Shown one piece after another: positions 2,543 through 18,229 of a stretch of DNA of 21,185 nucleotides. Every line of letters starts with the position of its first letter. Positions within the stretch are counted from its first letter, which is position 1. This stretch comes from a virus, in the IMG/VR virus record IMGVR_UViG_3300046777_000128, positions 1 to 21,185 of that record; one strand, given 5' to 3'. A model generated the notes under the pieces. That model did no database searches, had not been told where the DNA came from, and was given only the letters and a program-made list of their open reading frames with translations. The position numbers and the translations under genes are program-made.

Positions 2543-3160
2543 ATGCCAGTGCCAAATACTTTTGCGAATGCAACTACATCAATCCCGTTATCGCAGTTAG
2601 ATAACAACTTTGCTACTCCAATTACGATTGGCAATACGGCTGTTCAGCTTGGTAATACCGTTACCACGCTAAACAACATGACATTTGCCAATGTCACTAT
2701 TAGCAGTGTAGCTACACCGTTGCCTAATAACTTCTTAGCTAACAGTACAGCTACATTAGGTAATACAACAGTTACCCTTGGTAGCACAACTACTAGCGTA
2801 GGTAACTTAACGCTGACTAACGGTACATACACTGACTATACGGAAAGTGTTGTTGCTATTGGTACAGTTACTAGCTCAAACACTCTTGCATTAACTAACG
2901 GTACAGTCCAGACAGCTACTCTAACGGCTTCTACGGCTTGTACGTTTACTATGCCTACTGCGACTGCTGGTAAGTCATTCATCCTATTGTTAAAGCAAGC
3001 TGCATCTACTGGTAACGGTAGTGCTACGTTTACTGGTGTTAAGTGGGGTACTGCTGGTGCGCCTACGATTAGTGCGACTGCTGGCAAGATGGATATTTTG
3101 ACCTTTGTAAGTGACGGTACTAACTGGTACGGCTCTATCGCTCAAGGTTACACACCATAA
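2543..3160 (+). CDS. Small fibre-type virion protein
   Basis: 205 residues, starting one base after the nozzle gene's stop, with a GAGG upstream. The protein is dominated by Thr, Asn, Ala and Val with almost no charged residues. The N-terminal pattern LSQLDNNFATP followed by strings of GNT-V-LG / TLGNTTVTLG short beta units (residues about 15-100) is typical of phage tail-fibre and tail-appendage proteins. Residues about 125-205 form a separate C-terminal beta domain ending in FVSDGTNWYGSIAQGYTP, a type often found at the tips of phage fibres. The role in host attachment is inferred from composition and position. No catalytic motif is visible. Confidence 0.6.
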   Translation: MPVPNTFANATTSIPLSQLDNNFATPITIGNTAVQLGNTVTTLNNMTFANVTISSVATPLPNNFLANSTATLGNTTVTLGSTTTSVGNLTLTNGTYTDYTESVVAIGTVTSSNTLALTNGTVQTATLTASTACTFTMPTATAGKSFILLLKQAASTGNGSATFTGVKWGTAGAPTISATAGKMDILTFVSDGTNWYGSIAQGYTP

Positions 3161-3170
3161 GGGTTTAATA

Positions 3171-4757
3171 ATGTTTGCTTATTCAAAGATTATGCAAGCG
3201 TTGGCTGTTGGCGGTGGCAATGTCACCGTTATTCAGCGTTTCCTTGCGTCTGGTACGTGGACTGCCCCTACTGGTGTCAGCACAGTTGATTACCTTGTTG
3301 TAGCAGGTGGTGGCGGTGGTGGTTTTGATGTTGGTGGTGCTGGCGGAGCAGGTGGATTTAGAACTGGTACAGGACTAAGCGTTACGGCAGGAACTGACTA
3401 CACAATTACTGTTGGTGCTGGTGGTGCTGGTGATACAGCATCTGGAGGAACTGGAGCAAATGGCAGTAATTCTGTTTTTTCTACTATTACATCAGCGGGT
3501 GGCGGTGGCGGTGGAACATTAGGTTCTGCTGGTGCGGCTGGTGGTTCAGGTGGCGGTGGAAGTGGTACTGGTGGTGCTGCTCCTGCTTATAGCGGAGGTG
3601 CAGGAAACACTCCATCAACTACTCCTTCACAAGGTAATAATGGCGGTGCTGGTTCAGGCGCATCAAACTATGCTGGTGGTGGTGGCGGTGGTGCGGGTGC
3701 GGTTGGCGGTGATAGGTCAACAACAACTGGCGGTACTGGTGGTACTGGAACTGCTTCAACAATTTCAGGTTCTTCAGTTACCTATGCTGGTGGTGGTGGC
3801 GGTGGTGCTGTAGGACCAGCGGGCGGAACTGGAGGAACGGGAGGTTCTGGCGGTGGTGGAAATGGTTCTGCTCCATCAAGTCAAGCTGGCGGTAATGGAA
3901 CTGCTAATCTTGGTGGTGGTGCTGGAGGTGGGGCAAACTCAGGCAATGGCGGCACAGGCGGTTCAGGCATAGTCATTCTTTCTTATTCCGTAGCATCACA
4001 AACAGTCTTTACATTTAAATCATCTACTACATGGGTATGCCCTACAGGTGTGACCTCCGTTGATTATTTAGTCGTGGCTGGTGGTGGTGGCGGTGGATCA
4101 AGACATGGCGGTGGAGGTGGTGCTGGTGGTTATAGAACTGGCACATCATTATCTGTAACGGCTGGCACAGAATATACAGTTACTGTAGGTAGTGGTGGAG
4201 CAGGGGCTACAAATTTAGGAACTGCGACCAACGGAAATGCAGGAAGTGACTCTACTTTTAATTCTATAACATCTACTGGCGGCGGCTATGGAAATGGAGT
4301 TGCTGGGGCTGGTGGAAATGGAGGGTCAGGTGGTGGCGGTGGTTATGCTGGTACTGCTGGTTCTGGAAACACTCCATCTTATACGCCATCACAAGGAAGT
4401 AACGGTGGTGCTGGTGGTTCTGCTCCTAATATTAATGGTGGCGGCGGCGGTGGAGCTGGAGCTACTGGAGGCTCATCTTCTGGTTCTACTTCTGGCTCTG
4501 GTGGTAATGGTTCGGCATCAAGTATTTCAGGAAGTTCAGTAACCTACGCTTGTGGTGGTGGCGGCGGGAATCTTAATAACGATAATCGAGGTTTAGGTGG
4601 TAGTTCATCCGTTAATGGCGGCAATGGTGCTGGTCATACTTCAGCACAAGGAAGCAACGGAACTGCCAATACTGGAACTGGCGGTGGTGGCGGTAGTGAT
4701 ACTTATGGAGCATATAACGGAGGCTCTGGCATCGTAATTATTAAAATCAACCAATAA
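3171..4757 (+). CDS. Polyglycine fibre-tip protein, two duplicated halves
   Basis: 528 residues from the ATG at 3171. A GTG at 3111 in the same frame lies deep inside the previous gene and is less likely; AAGGG sits about seven bases before the chosen ATG. After a short N-terminus, two units start with a T-W-x-[CA]-P-T-G-V-[ST]-[ST]-VDYLVVAGGGGGG motif (W30 and W288). Each continues into long Gly-rich loops and ends in G-SGIVI[LI] (near residues 264-270 and at the C-terminus). This is the glycine-rich domain seen in many phage fibres. Polyglycine adhesin tips, as in the Salmonella phage S16 gp38 protein, are a known structural parallel. It is likely the host-contacting tip. Confidence 0.7.
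   Translation: MFAYSKIMQALAVGGGNVTVIQRFLASGTWTAPTGVSTVDYLVVAGGGGGGFDVGGAGGAGGFRTGTGLSVTAGTDYTITVGAGGAGDTASGGTGANGSNSVFSTITSAGGGGGGTLGSAGAAGGSGGGGSGTGGAAPAYSGGAGNTPSTTPSQGNNGGAGSGASNYAGGGGGGAGAVGGDRSTTTGGTGGTGTASTISGSSVTYAGGGGGGAVGPAGGTGGTGGSGGGGNGSAPSSQAGGNGTANLGGGAGGGANSGNGGTGGSGIVILSYSVASQTVFTFKSSTTWVCPTGVTSVDYLVVAGGGGGGSRHGGGGGAGGYRTGTSLSVTAGTEYTVTVGSGGAGATNLGTATNGNAGSDSTFNSITSTGGGYGNGVAGAGGNGGSGGGGGYAGTAGSGNTPSYTPSQGSNGGAGGSAPNINGGGGGGAGATGGSSSGSTSGSGGNGSASSISGSSVTYACGGGGGNLNNDNRGLGGSSSVNGGNGAGHTSAQGSNGTANTGTGGGGGSDTYGAYNGGSGIVIIKINQ
3237..4757 (+). repeat. Tandem duplication within the polyglycine gene
   Basis: Unit 1 is about 3237-4010 and unit 2 about 4011-4757, with matching tryptophans exactly 774 bases (258 codons) apart. 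Landmarks recur in order: VDYLVVAGGGGGG, GGYRTGT/GGFRTGT, SVTAGT-YT-TVG-GGAG, NTPS-TPSQG-NGGAG, SISGSSVTYA and GGSGIVI. DNA similarity remains around the NTPS-TPSQG segment (near 3605 and 4366) and the SGSSVTYA segment (near 3768 and 4525). The many GGT/GGC runs are low-complexity DNA. Confidence 0.8.
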
Positions 4758-4762
4758 GGTCT

Positions 4763-5017
4763 ATGGAAACTAAACTCTACAGAATGTACGGTATCGATGT
4801 AGCTATGTCATTGCTGCGTCCTAATGCTAAATGGGAAATATCCAACACTACATTTACTCGTTGGGATGATCCTAGACCATGCCCATCATGGGAAGAAGTG
4901 CAATGGGTAATGGATAAGATACGTGAGTTTGAAGACAGTATTCCGACTATTTGGTTGCCAGAGCAACTTGAAAAAATGAAAGTTGATGCTGAAGAATTTG
5001 AGAAGGCGGTTGCATGA
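4763..5017 (+). CDS. Small XkdW-like tail-associated protein
   Basis: 84 residues, starting five bases after the previous stop behind an AAGG. The core is a short strand-helix pattern: ALL-RPNAKWEISN, then F-RWDDPRPCPSWEEVQ, then a helix to the C-terminus containing KIREFEDSI. This resembles the small XkdW-type proteins encoded beside tail-fibre genes in phages and prophages, whose function is not established; a fibre chaperone is one idea. Its stop overlaps the start of the 2OG-oxygenase gene (ATGA), so the two are probably translated together. The likeness is from memory of the motif and no alignment was made. Confidence 0.5.
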   Translation: METKLYRMYGIDVAMSLLRPNAKWEISNTTFTRWDDPRPCPSWEEVQWVMDKIREFEDSIPTIWLPEQLEKMKVDAEEFEKAVA

Positions 5018-5616
5018 ATATGCACAACCTTTTTCCTGTGCCTATTGGTATGTTTGATCTTGACCGTGATTTAACGGACGAGGAAATGTTGTTTGTTCGT
5101 GGGCAGGATACACGCGCTAACGAAGGCAATACCACTAGCAAGAATAACTTTGTTTTGCGTGATTCGGTAATGACATCGTTGCGTGGTTGGGTGGAAGATT
5201 GTGTTGCTGAATACTTTAAGACTATCAGTAACCCTAAGCATGACGTTCAACTAAGAATTACGCAGAGTTGGTTTAATTACAGCGAACAAGGTCAATGGCA
5301 TCATAAACACGCGCATCCAAATAGCTTTGTATCTGGTGTGTTTTATTTGAATACAAATCCTGATGACAAGATTTATTTCTATCGTTCAGGCTGGCAGCAA
5401 ATTAAGTTTCCACCAGAGGACTGGAATATCTATAACTCTGAAAGCTGGTGGTTTGAGGCTACCAAAGGCAGATTGATATTGTTTCCATCGTCGTTAGAAC
5501 ACAATGTTCCGACGGTTCAAGGTGATGAGACACGCATAAGTATGTCGTTTAATACATTTCCTGTTGGGGTGGTTGGCGACGAATTAAGTTTGACCGGATT
5601 GAAATTGGAGGCATAA
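5014..5616 (+). CDS. Putative 2OG-Fe(II) oxygenase
   Basis: 200 residues. The start overlaps the previous stop by four bases; a second ATG at 5020 is possible. The fold signature is that of the small 2-oxoglutarate, Fe(II)-dependent oxygenases common in phages (the TIGR02466 / 2OG-FeII_Oxy_5 type). It includes SWFNY, then an H-x-H-P-N-S pair (H99, H101) followed by SGVFYLN, then G-RLILFPS-LEHNV with H163, then ETRISMSFN with R174. H163 and one or both N-terminal histidines would bind iron, and R174 would hold 2-oxoglutarate. The family hydroxylates or otherwise oxidises a substrate using O2. The substrate here is unknown; DNA, virion protein or a host metabolite are all possible. It lies inside the fibre cassette, which is notable. 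Confidence 0.75.
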   Translation: MNMHNLFPVPIGMFDLDRDLTDEEMLFVRGQDTRANEGNTTSKNNFVLRDSVMTSLRGWVEDCVAEYFKTISNPKHDVQLRITQSWFNYSEQGQWHHKHAHPNSFVSGVFYLNTNPDDKIYFYRSGWQQIKFPPEDWNIYNSESWWFEATKGRLILFPSSLEHNVPTVQGDETRISMSFNTFPVGVVGDELSLTGLKLEA

Positions 5617-5979
5617 ATGGCTCACTTTGCACAAATTGATGAAAACAATATCGTCACTCAAGTTATCGTAATAGATAACAAAGACACTGCTGACGCTAAT
5701 GGCGTAGAGAAAGAATATATCGGTGCTGCGTTTTGTGAGCGATTGTTTGGTGGAACATGGAAGCAGACTAGCTACAACGCCAATTTTCGTAAAAACTATG
5801 CTGGCATTGGTTATACCTACAATGCAGATATAGATGCGTTTGTAGCTCCTAAGCCTTATGCAAGTTGGACTTTAGACGCTAATGCTCAATGGCAAGCACC
5901 AGTAGCTATGCCTACTGATGGCAAGATGTATTCATGGGATGAAGCCACTACTTCATGGATTGAAATTCAGGGGGCATAA
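5617..5979 (+). CDS. Conserved small phage protein (MAHFA-type)
   Basis: 120 residues, starting right after the oxygenase stop with GGAGG five bases upstream. The order of motifs is the N-terminal MAHFAQIDENNIVTQVIV strand pair, a central GGTWKQTSYN-NFRKNYAGIGYTY segment (residues 45-68), a PKPYASWTL segment (79-86) and a C-terminal DGKMYSWDEATTSWIE segment. This set is widespread in aquatic phages, usually near tail-fibre genes, but I know of no assigned function. Trp and Tyr richness with short strands fits a virion or fibre-associated beta protein. Its stop and the next start share bases (TAATG). Confidence 0.65.
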   Translation: MAHFAQIDENNIVTQVIVIDNKDTADANGVEKEYIGAAFCERLFGGTWKQTSYNANFRKNYAGIGYTYNADIDAFVAPKPYASWTLDANAQWQAPVAMPTDGKMYSWDEATTSWIEIQGA

Positions 5980-6299
5980 TGGGCATCCAAGCATTTACAA
6001 AACTTGGTAATACTGTAACATTTACGGCAGACACAGTTGCTCCTGCTGCTGTACAAGCTGCATCTACAACATTGGGCGGTAATCAATACCGTATTATCAA
6101 TGCTGGAACGAACATCGTATTTCTTGGTTATGGTACGGATGCTGCCACTGCGGCTGCTAATGCTGGCAATGTTGCTACATCTCTGCCTTTGTTAGCAGGC
6201 ACAGACGAGATTCTGAGCTTTGTGCCTAACGCTTACTTTACTGGTTTAACCGCTGGTGGATCATCTTTGATTTATGTGACACCGGGTGACGGACTATAA
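5979..6299 (+). CDS. Small beta-rich virion-type protein (copy 1)
   Basis: 106 residues, with its ATG overlapping the preceding TAA and an AGGGGG just upstream. Ala, Thr and Gly rich with few charges. It contains the segments NQYRIINAGTNIVFLGYG (residues 35-52) and a C-terminal SLIYVTPGDGL. A similar plan recurs in the 15668-16015 product (NQYFVSNP..VFVAFG and AKLYITAGEGL), so the two are probably paralogues. The fibre-cassette location suggests a virion decoration or fibre-linked role, but the function is unknown. Confidence 0.55.
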   Translation: MGIQAFTKLGNTVTFTADTVAPAAVQAASTTLGGNQYRIINAGTNIVFLGYGTDAATAAANAGNVATSLPLLAGTDEILSFVPNAYFTGLTAGGSSLIYVTPGDGL

Positions 6300-6308
6300 G
6301 GAACAATC

Positions 6309-7358
6309 ATGTTAAAGACGGTTGTAACTTTAGGGGGCGGTGGTGGTAACGGTTCAGGTACAGTAACCCAAGTTAGTACGGGTACTGGCTTAACTGGTGG
6401 CCCAATTACGACCAGCGGTACTATTAGCCTTGCTAACACAGCCGTTACCGCAGGGGTGTACGGAACATCAACTGTCGTTCCGCAGATCACTGTAGATGCA
6501 CAAGGCCGTATTACTAGCGTAGCAAACGTAAGCATTTCCTCTGGTGGTGTTGGCACAGTCACAAATGTGGCTACTGGTACAGGTCTTACTGGTGGCCCGA
6601 TTACTTCTAGCGGCACTATCTCACTTGCAAATACAGCGGTTGTTGCTGCTGATTATGGCTCTGCTTCCCAAGTTGGAACCTTCACGGTTGATGCTCAAGG
6701 CAGACTAACTGCGGCTTCTAACGTAGCTATTAGTATTTCTGTAGCTAACGTATCTGGTGCTGTACCAAACACAGTCAATGTTATTGCTGGCACAGGCTTA
6801 TCTGGTGGTGGTAACTTAGCATCTAACATCACAGTCAGTCTTGCTAATACGGCTGTTACGGCAGGAAACTACGGTAGTTCTACTCAAGTAGCCCAAATCA
6901 CTATTGACGCACAAGGTCGCATTACAGCGGCAGCTAATGTGGCTGTTAGTGGTGGCGGTGGCGGTGGAACAGGCAATGTAGTTTCCAATGTTGTGACAAT
7001 TACTGTTGGCGATAATATTTCTTGGACTAACGCAACTAGCGTAGTTTTGTCGTGGATTAACAGCTCAAGTAGTATTGTTACGTGGACGAATACCGTGTAT
7101 TCAGTTACTAACAATAATGCAACTATTCTAGTTAATCATCCTTCAGCACCGTTTGGCGTTCTTTTACCGTCAGCTTCAACGGTAGTTGGTCAGCAATATC
7201 AGATTAAGAAGATTGATAGTTCTGCTAATGCGGTAACTGTTAGCACTACGTCCTCACAAACTATTGATGGCAACTTAACGTATTCGTTAGCAACAATATA
7301 CAAGAGCGTTACGTTGCAATCAGACGGTTCTAACTACTATATTTTTGCGGCTTTTTAA
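6309..7358 (+). CDS. Tail fibre with three beta repeats
   Basis: 349 residues, preceded by AAGGA eight bases upstream. A Gly-rich N-terminus (9-16) leads into three copies of a unit around residues 24-78, 89-142 and 160-214. The unit core is GTGL-GG, then a TISLANTAV strand, YG, and VDAQGR[IL]T-A-NV. This unit is typical of phage fibre shafts and adhesins. After a Gly stretch (215-220) come three tryptophans ten residues apart (W239, W249, W259). A C-terminal domain (about 265-349) follows, with LLPSAS, the QQYQIKK strand and LQSDGSNYYIF. The whole fits a trimeric fibre with a C-terminal receptor-contacting or trimerising domain. Host binding is inferred. Confidence 0.7.
   Translation: MLKTVVTLGGGGGNGSGTVTQVSTGTGLTGGPITTSGTISLANTAVTAGVYGTSTVVPQITVDAQGRITSVANVSISSGGVGTVTNVATGTGLTGGPITSSGTISLANTAVVAADYGSASQVGTFTVDAQGRLTAASNVAISISVANVSGAVPNTVNVIAGTGLSGGGNLASNITVSLANTAVTAGNYGSSTQVAQITIDAQGRITAAANVAVSGGGGGGTGNVVSNVVTITVGDNISWTNATSVVLSWINSSSSIVTWTNTVYSVTNNNATILVNHPSAPFGVLLPSASTVVGQQYQIKKIDSSANAVTVSTTSSQTIDGNLTYSLATIYKSVTLQSDGSNYYIFAAF
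6378..6950 (+). repeat. Three fibre-shaft repeats
   Basis: Residues 24-78, 89-142 and 160-214 of the fibre at 6309 align as three units spaced 65-71 residues apart. GTGLTGGPIT is exact in units 1 and 2, while unit 3 has GTGLSGGGNL. SLANTAV and DAQGR[IL]T recur in all three, so units 1 and 2 are the closest pair. Confidence 0.8.
7011..7100 (+). repeat. Three-unit decad repeat, Trp every 10 residues
   Basis: Residues 235-264 of the fibre form three ten-residue units with Trp at position five (W239, W249, W259), each preceded by an [IVL]-x-[ST]-type strand and, in units 1 and 3, followed by TN. It matches the spacing and core of the 2314-2403 repeat in the nozzle-like gene. Confidence 0.6.
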
Positions 7359-17288: not shown

Positions 17289-18026
17289 TTATGGTGCTGG
17301 AATAAGTTTTCCATCAAATGCGTAGGTTCCTATATGCGTCAAACCTACCCACGGTGCTGCATATATCTCGCCACCGTTATCTCTCCATGTCTTACAGAAG
17401 TGGTAATCCTCTGACAGCAAGCGTTTAGTCTCTGGCTCAATACTCTCTGTAAAGTATTGGCTAATCTGTTCTGCCCCTATATTTCCAGATAGATCGGTAA
17501 CGTCATTAACGTACCAAGGAACGATAGGCTTTAGCTTTTCAAACACTTCACGCTTAATCAGCATAAATCCTGTGCCACCATTCCATATCTCTACTGGTTC
17601 ATTTACTGGAACGGTAACTTCACCTTCATAGTTCTTGAGATTAACCACGAAAGAACCTGTGTGATACTTCAACTGAGTATCAGGCACACCAGACTCTATT
17701 GCCTTGCGTACTCCTGCCCAATTGATTTCTTTCTTAGGATAGATACCGCAGATAACATCCTTGTCTGACTCCATCATCTTCAAGAAGTCAGCAGGGTTGA
17801 ACTGAATGTCTGCATCTATGAACATCAAATGCGTTGCGTCTGACTTCATAAAGCCATGCGCTAGAGCATTCCTGCCGCGAGTAATCAAACTTTCATTGAA
17901 CATGAATGACATCATGCTCTGTATGTTGTTGTCTCTAAGCAGGTTGTTTAGTTGCAGCAAGCTTTGTGCGTAAAAACCGTAGCATTGGCCTCCGTACATC
18001 GGGCTGGCAATAAATATTTTTTTCAT
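17289..18026 (-). CDS. GT-A-fold glycosyltransferase
   Basis: 245 residues. I chose the ATG at 18026 (MKKIFIASPMYGG), which overlaps the previous stop (ATGA) and has AGGAT upstream; an ATG at 18047 lies inside the previous gene. The order is an N-terminal beta strand then Gly-rich turn, an RGRNALAHGFM helix (50-60), the metal-binding DAD at 71-73 in LMFIDADIQFNP, a GGTGFMLIKREVF acceptor-side segment (150-162) and a late EDYHFCKTWR segment (206-215) ending near H231. These fit family 2-like nucleotide-sugar transferases. The sugar and acceptor are unknown; phage enzymes of this class glycosylate DNA, virion or host surface. It has no membrane segment. Confidence 0.75.
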   Translation of the reverse strand: MKKIFIASPMYGGQCYGFYAQSLLQLNNLLRDNNIQSMMSFMFNESLITRGRNALAHGFMKSDATHLMFIDADIQFNPADFLKMMESDKDVICGIYPKKEINWAGVRKAIESGVPDTQLKYHTGSFVVNLKNYEGEVTVPVNEPVEIWNGGTGFMLIKREVFEKLKPIVPWYVNDVTDLSGNIGAEQISQYFTESIEPETKRLLSEDYHFCKTWRDNGGEIYAAPWVGLTHIGTYAFDGKLIPAP

Positions 18027-18229
18027 TTGTTCATCCTGTAAAACCATTTGTCTGCTCTGCGCTCACAGTTAATGCTGTAACCGTTAGCTCTGAGTTCTGA
18101 AATAATGCTATTAACTGCACACACTCCTGCCTTCTGGATAATATCTAGCGTTGTGTATTCCCCTCCCCGCCCCAAAAGATTTGCGACTTTCTGTAATCGT
18201 TCAGACTTATCAAACTTTGCAGCATTCAC
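18023..18229 (-). CDS. Small winged-helix DNA-binding protein
   Basis: 68 residues from a GTG at 18229 that overlaps the preceding stop; GGAGG lies six bases upstream. The pattern RLQKVANLLGRGGEYTTLDI, then AVNSIISELRANGYSI, then a short wing ending in WFYRMNK is a helix-turn-helix with a C-terminal wing (HTH_39-like). It is common in phage and prophage early regions. It probably binds DNA, possibly as a regulator or replication accessory. The stop overlaps the glycosyltransferase start. Confidence 0.62.
   Translation of the reverse strand: MNAAKFDKSERLQKVANLLGRGGEYTTLDIIQKAGVCAVNSIISELRANGYSINCERRADKWFYRMNK

Follow-up and report, generated by a model that had tools for sequence, protein, structure and literature searches.

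In the window analysed here, 21,185 nucleotides of the viral record IMGVR_UViG_3300046777_000128, a gene for a 2OG-Fe(II) oxygenase occupies a fixed place among tail-fibre genes, and comparison with related loci identifies it as an optional member of a fibre cassette that is itself exchangeable, in a freshwater phage. In sequence, the oxygenase is one further member of the PF13759 family; the value of the finding lies in its slot, which is both defined and optional.

An optional gene in an exchangeable fibre cassette

The cassette in the window reads, in order, glycine-rich tip (PF21722), 84-aa XkdW-like protein, oxygenase and 120-aa phrog_7759 protein (Table 1). The end of the XkdW-like gene overlaps the start of the oxygenase by the 4 bases ATGA, an overlap that suggests translational coupling of the two, and the phrog_7759 gene starts at the base right after the oxygenase stop, leaving no gap. 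The open reading frame of the tip gene opens at GTG 3111; several relatives start at the matching methionine of MFAYSKI..., which lies here at 3171. The initial annotation had called the small upstream neighbor XkdW-like, a name that fits tentatively at the level of the family, 4 of 12 rows of which match PF09636 (XkdW) with E values up to 1 (best 2.2e-4), but not for the window copy itself, which gives no match.

Table 1. Positions of the oxygenase, its predicted active-site codons and neighboring genes in the window
Feature	Position	Strand	Basis
Tail-fibre-like protein upstream of the cassette	2543..3160	+	phrog_9017, E 2.4e-8
Glycine-rich fibre-tip protein, PF21722, phrog_2295	3171..4757	+	Gly_rich_2 match, E 4e-50
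84-aa XkdW-like protein, phrog_21526	4763..5017	+	Family-level match
2OG-Fe(II) oxygenase, PF13759/TIGR02466, 200 aa	5014..5616	+	Profiles, alignment, predicted fold
H99 codon, predicted metal ligand	5308..5310	+	Invariant in relatives
H101 codon, standing where Asp/Glu is the usual ligand	5314..5316	+	Invariant in closer relatives; H in 33/34 diverse rows
H163 codon, distal predicted metal ligand	5500..5502	+	Invariant in relatives
R174 codon	5533..5535	+	Invariant in closer relatives; 33/34 diverse rows
120-aa phrog_7759 protein, putative fibre chaperone	5617..5979	+	Predicted N-domain weakly like Pam3 gp25
106-aa protein, common to phages without the cassette; backbone control	5979..6299	+	Neighbor comparison
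Fibre-like repeat protein downstream	6309..7358	+	phrog_36881, E 1.9e-12; phrog_38058, E 4.9e-4

The phrog_7759 protein looks weakly like a folding helper of the fibre, in that its predicted N-domain resembles the Pam3 chaperone. A Foldseek search with its model (pLDDT 89) gave no match at E 0.001 or below. In a second structural comparison, Z 2 was reached by 2 of the 154 aligned chains, both from fibre-assembly complexes: chain a of the Pam3 fibre complex (7ypx), a weak match whose Z of 5.3 over 53 aligned residues is of a size that could reflect nothing beyond a shared arrangement, and chain B of the Mu fibre-chaperone complex (Z 2.6, 54 aligned). Chain a has 162 residues, the same length as gp25, which passages of PMC9608196 describe as the 162-residue chaperone of the fibre gp24, with an N-terminal beta-sandwich that binds the TNF-like and Gly-rich domains of the fibre. 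The helical trimerisation C-domain described for gp25 is absent from the phrog_7759 model, which has no helix after residue 44, and we therefore do not claim full Tfa membership.

The arrangement recurs widely among viral loci selected by the enzyme. We drew two such sets, taking the best 80 loci each time, from 159 matches in one and from 378 in the other, and set aside loci too short to judge. The phrog_7759 gene lies downstream of the oxygenase in 75/75 and 73/76 of the loci judged, the XkdW-like gene upstream in 77/77 and 67/71, and the Gly-rich tip upstream in 66/66 and 57/59. These counts, like those that follow, are not independent events, because the loci are metagenomic contigs, many of them closely related, and each set is the best 80 of a longer list. 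The fibre setting named in the initial annotation also stood when contigs were picked by the neighbors instead of the oxygenase. Among the best 80 loci picked by the XkdW-like gene (79 new, 2 too short), the oxygenase is directly downstream in 69 of the 77 judged, and among the best 80 picked by phrog_7759 (76 new, 2 too short), it is upstream in 69 of 74. When loci were picked by the 106-aa backbone gene (best 80; 6 too short), it was present in only 12 of 74; the tail protein at 565-2541 has a homologue on the same locus in 57 of the 62 that lack the oxygenase. This difference between neighbor-selected and backbone-selected loci shows that the oxygenase goes with the exchangeable fibre-tip cassette and not with the backbone. 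Both the XkdW-like and the phrog_7759 genes also occur without the oxygenase, so neither depends on it.

Gene order in relatives had been proposed as a test of this setting, with relatives that keep the gene among DNA-modification or nucleotide genes, and never beside fibres, as the contrary pattern. That pattern was not found among the relatives compared, although the broader family does have members in metabolic or replication regions. A copy in S-B64 (42% identity) lies by photosystem genes, more distant homologues are found among replication or metabolic genes, and a lineage with 51% identity (L172:50-646, L176:8001-8597) lies before a terminase-like gene and not in a fibre cassette. The oxygenase of L157 adjoins fibre-like genes without the XkdW-like and phrog_7759 partners.

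The oxygenase is present or absent as a whole gene. De-duplication of 289 rows left 206 cassettes, 197 with the oxygenase and 9 without. In four of the nine (L215, L230, L235 and L245) the site is closed to 3 bases, against 602 in the best enzyme-bearing relative; L227 leaves 5 bases against 601, L232 leaves 15 against 610, L328 leaves 65 against 656, L273 leaves 78 against 690 and L243 leaves 87 against 682. Flanks at these nine sites are 63 to 96% identical to those of enzyme-bearing relatives. Eight XkdW-selected loci lack the oxygenase, and our gene-by-gene reading covered seven of them, all but L236; among the five phrog_7759-selected loci that lack it, the XkdW-like gene is kept in three and absent in two. 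Enzyme types are mixed as well: of 38 cassettes in which the XkdW-like protein shares 85% identity or more with that of the window, 30 carry an enzyme type about 56% identical to the window's, 3 carry the window type and 5 carry none. From the whole-gene absences and the mixed types it follows that the oxygenase is gained, lost or exchanged as a whole unit. The nine natural oxygenase-free cassettes would also be useful as controls.

Within the window's enzyme type, the median pairwise dN/dS of the oxygenase is 0.044 (64 sequences), the lowest of the four cassette genes compared (XkdW-like, 0.106, 64 sequences; phrog_7759, 0.102, 54; tip, 0.229, 59), with the ratios to be read as rough because median dS, at 1.2-1.5, is near saturation. 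The values support purifying selection on the oxygenase, and their ranking fits a constrained, functioning enzyme.

Family, fold and predicted active site

The initial identification of the gene as a 2OG-Fe(II) oxygenase is confirmed by profiles and predicted fold alike. Its product matches PF13759 with E 1.1e-21 (77.5 bits against a cut-off of 27), TIGR02466 with 71.7 bits (curated cut-off 62.5) and phrog_81 with E 2.8e-46; against PF13640, the prolyl 4-hydroxylase type, it scores 27.1 bits at a cut-off of 27. An AlphaFold2 model built from a 27-row alignment (mean pLDDT 83) has the double-stranded beta-helix fold and compares best with 2rg4 (Z 20.0; 177 residues aligned at rmsd 2.4) and with 3bvc (Z 19.8; 178 residues at rmsd 2.5). 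The next rows include OGFOD1 (15.6), PHD2 (14.9), a Pseudomonas prolyl hydroxylase (14.7) and AlkB (14.7). No row of the fold comparison separates protein from nucleic-acid substrates; since prolyl hydroxylases and AlkB are tied, the predicted fold gives the superfamily, that of the 2OG-Fe(II) oxygenases, and does not tell the substrate. Two scans of bacterial genome contigs confirmed no bacterial relatives, and the bacterial members that we used came from plasmids. When the MW202483 and S-B64 proteins served as queries in wider scans of viral sequence, only 2 and 1 loci were obtained.

The residues on which the initial annotation had rested the family assignment, H99/H101, H163 and R174, stand where it placed them. 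All four are invariant in 27/27 aligned rows, the window included, and in 179/179 distinct homologues with at least 45% identity and coverage of the four positions (300 of 351 rows passed before de-duplication). R174 presumably binds the 2-oxoglutarate carboxylate, as expected for the superfamily. A more diverse alignment of 34 rows takes in paralogues from cyanophages and three bacterial members found on plasmids. Here H99 and H163 are kept in every row, and H101 and R174 in 33 rows each; the one exception at position 101 is an F in L095:9581-10180. With H-x-H also present in the sequences of both solved relatives, 2rg4 and 3bvc, the alignments indicate that it is the usual motif of the PF13759/TIGR02466 family. 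The H-x-H that had seemed an oddity in need of explanation thus ceases to be one, and we rejected it as an anomaly.

Prolyl 4-hydroxylases of the PF13640 type carry the metal motif H-x-D/E, and the AlkB DNA/RNA dealkylases carry H-x-D. Neither is found in the oxygenase: position 101 is H in the window and in 179/179 homologues, and the fold match to AlkB at Z of about 14-15 shows the superfamily only. We consider it likely that the enzyme of the window is active.

Candidate substrates and alternative roles

Lying between a fibre-tip gene and a chaperone-like gene, the oxygenase has a plausible target in a fibre protein. Our leading guess, held tentatively and placed ahead of the moron explanation discussed below, is that it is an optional cassette accessory that hydroxylates a protein of the fibre module. 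On this reading the gene would code for a functional PF13759-family hydroxylase dependent on Fe(II) and 2-oxoglutarate, whose coupled and late expression would time it with that of the fibre genes. During assembly, this enzyme would hydroxylate a side chain of the tip, the XkdW-like or the chaperone-like protein, and the modification could alter folding, stability or receptor contacts of the fibre module.

A more specific suggestion of the initial annotation, that the substrate is a Gly/Pro/Asn-rich fibre chain, gained no support from the tips. The G, P and N fractions of the tip are the same in cassettes with the oxygenase (152) and without it (9), and we discarded tip composition as a substrate signature. 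Tip k-mers fared no better: those that differ come from a comparison uncorrected for relatedness, and we ascribe them to clade membership. Covariation of tip type with enzyme type was also rejected as a substrate signal: nearest-neighbor agreement is 0.78, with a null of 0.63 ± 0.11 (38 cassettes, 32 with a usable tip), no better than the agreement with enzyme type of the XkdW-like (0.79) and phrog_7759 (0.82) neighbors.

The gene could instead be a moron or auxiliary gene, an active 2OG oxygenase whose target is a protein or metabolite of the host, with an effect such as a shift in 2-oxoglutarate or nitrogen status, and which sits in a permissive late-gene site with no functional link to the fibre. 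We regard this as possible, if somewhat doubtful. Whole-gene presence and absence fits it, cyanophages do have homologues among their metabolic or replication genes, and roles of this kind have been proposed for cyanophages (in passages of PMC3037559) and for the nearest named relative, DSL-LC04, whose oxygenase is discussed as acting on host metabolism (in passages of PMC10611076). However, the same slot is kept in 69/77 and 69/74 of the neighbor-selected loci judged, distant PF13759 genes lie by the same gene pair in five cyanomyophages and none of the other three cassette genes has a dN/dS as low as that of the oxygenase.

Repair of nucleic acids in the manner of AlkB, or base modification, seems improbable for a gene that is flanked by fibre-type genes, in a window whose RecT- and RecE-like genes lie some 13 kb from it and on the opposite strand. 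The structural rows would allow it, with AlkB and ALKBH structures tied with prolyl hydroxylases at Z of about 14-15, and some authors have tied phage 2OG enzymes to DNA repair (passages of PMC3037559 and PMC11288001). Still harder to credit is a catalytically dead double-stranded beta-helix protein that the fibre uses for structure or for binding. Although H-x-H in place of H-x-D/E can be read as the loss of a carboxylate ligand, it recurs in 33 of the 34 diverse rows, including the three bacterial plasmid members, and the four residues invariant in all 179 closer homologues are ones that a dead enzyme would hardly need.

A bolder form of the fibre-protein proposal holds that, in aquatic phages, the cassette is a plug-in tailoring module, in which separate 2OG lineages, accompanied in cyanomyophages by a nearby carbamoyltransferase, have been recruited beside the same fibre-assembly pair to hydroxylate the Gly-rich tip and perhaps to add further decoration. 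We think this unlikely on present evidence; if it were true, host range or stability would depend on a removable enzyme. With natural versions that have and lack the gene, this fixed slot makes directly testable what was a vague annotation: the comparison is between cassettes with a like tip and the same chaperone-like partner that differ by one enzyme. Elsewhere in the window, at 17289-18047 on the minus strand, lies a glycosyltransferase-like gene (PF00535, E 5.4e-5; phrog_1574), a possible partner if hydroxyls are decorated; it is far from the cassette and on the opposite strand to it.

Other phages and known systems

Homologues of the XkdW-like protein occur in 13 of 50,697 phage records, which represent six phages: DSL-LC04, S-SSM5, P-RSM4, S-TIM4, S-CAM8 and S-MS29. 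We viewed one record for each. A phrog_7759 gene lies within one gene of the XkdW-like gene in all six: the two adjoin in each of the five cyanomyophages, whereas in DSL-LC04 they flank the oxygenase. A PF13759 gene is directly downstream of the XkdW-like gene in five; S-MS29 has one intervening gene, which matches no Pfam family. A labelled tail-fibre gene is in view in S-SSM5 and S-CAM8, and the neighboring block is labelled hypothetical in P-RSM4, S-TIM4 and S-MS29. The enzymes beside the pair in S-SSM5 and S-CAM8 are 17% and 21% identical to the oxygenase of the window and fall outside its group (support 90/64) in a tree of the wider family in which 11 of 36 inner branches are well supported and 16 are open, long branches meet and the bootstrap is unsettled. 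MW202483 shows another order, namely Gly-rich protein, phrog_7759 and oxygenase (46% identity). The phrog_7759 gene is also found in phages of Roseobacter, Pontimonas and Methylophilales, names that are absent among the 213 enzyme-bearing records (E 1e-5), and so does not need the oxygenase.

Cyanophage genes whose label reads 'DNA endonuclease' or 'DNA endonuclease V' match 2OG oxygenase profiles, one clearly (L086:10782-11297; PF13640, E 2.8e-10) and two weakly (L083:7489-7989 and L084:7879-8394; E 1.1e-4 with PF13661 and 1.9e-3 with PF13640), and the endonuclease label of phrog_274 may be wrong. A 'TPR domain protein' in S-SSM5 (L086:9724-10251) and in P-RSM4 and S-TIM4 (L182:7343-7867, L185:7343-7867) scores as PF13759, with E 3.1e-7, 2e-7 and 2e-7. 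In MW202483, L082:6639-7487 is labelled 'baseplate wedge protein gp6' and is a phrog_2295 Gly-rich protein, like the tip of the window. Further 2OG genes and a carbamoyltransferase, which is Nol-like, lie near the XkdW-like/phrog_7759 pair in S-SSM5, P-RSM4, S-CAM8, S-MS29 and S-TIM4 (L086, L182-L185), and the 2OG cluster of syn9 (L084) has two tryptophan halogenases upstream; arrangements of this kind suggest a tailoring cluster.

2OG oxygenases are widespread in cyanophages, with 14 of 16 genomes reported in passages of PMC3037559, and phage members have been said to resemble human EGLN3 (passages of PMC12774648). A link between prolyl 4-hydroxylase and viral collagen tail fibres has been the subject of speculation (passages of PMC9301287). 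In the literature on phage 2OG oxygenases, tail-fibre modification and H-x-H triads, covered in part, with few subscription papers and without bioRxiv, we found no report of fibre hydroxylation by the PF13759/TIGR02466 family.

Among solved structures, the uncharacterised PF13759/TIGR02466 proteins 2rg4 and 3bvc are like the window enzyme in fold and in H-x-H; they come from bacteria, whereas the window copy sits in a phage fibre cassette. The collagen prolyl hydroxylase vCPH of the Chlorella virus PBCV-1 (5c5t) is viral and of the same superfamily (Z 13.9), but we take it to be of the prolyl 4-hydroxylase type with H-x-D, unlike the H-x-H of the window. Pam3 gp24/gp25 likewise combine a Gly-rich fibre tip with a small chaperone, and the passages of PMC9608196 that describe them mention no oxygenase. 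The clusters of S-SSM5, P-RSM4, S-TIM4, S-CAM8 and S-MS29 share with the window the XkdW-like and phrog_7759 homologues beside PF13759 genes, but differ in having several 2OG genes each, the pair in the other order and a carbamoyltransferase nearby. Closest to the window among named relatives is DSL-LC04 (OR003939), whose oxygenase is 63.5% identical and whose genes follow the same order of Gly-rich, XkdW-like, oxygenase and phrog_7759, with the difference that a long lectin/glucanase-like protein lies downstream.
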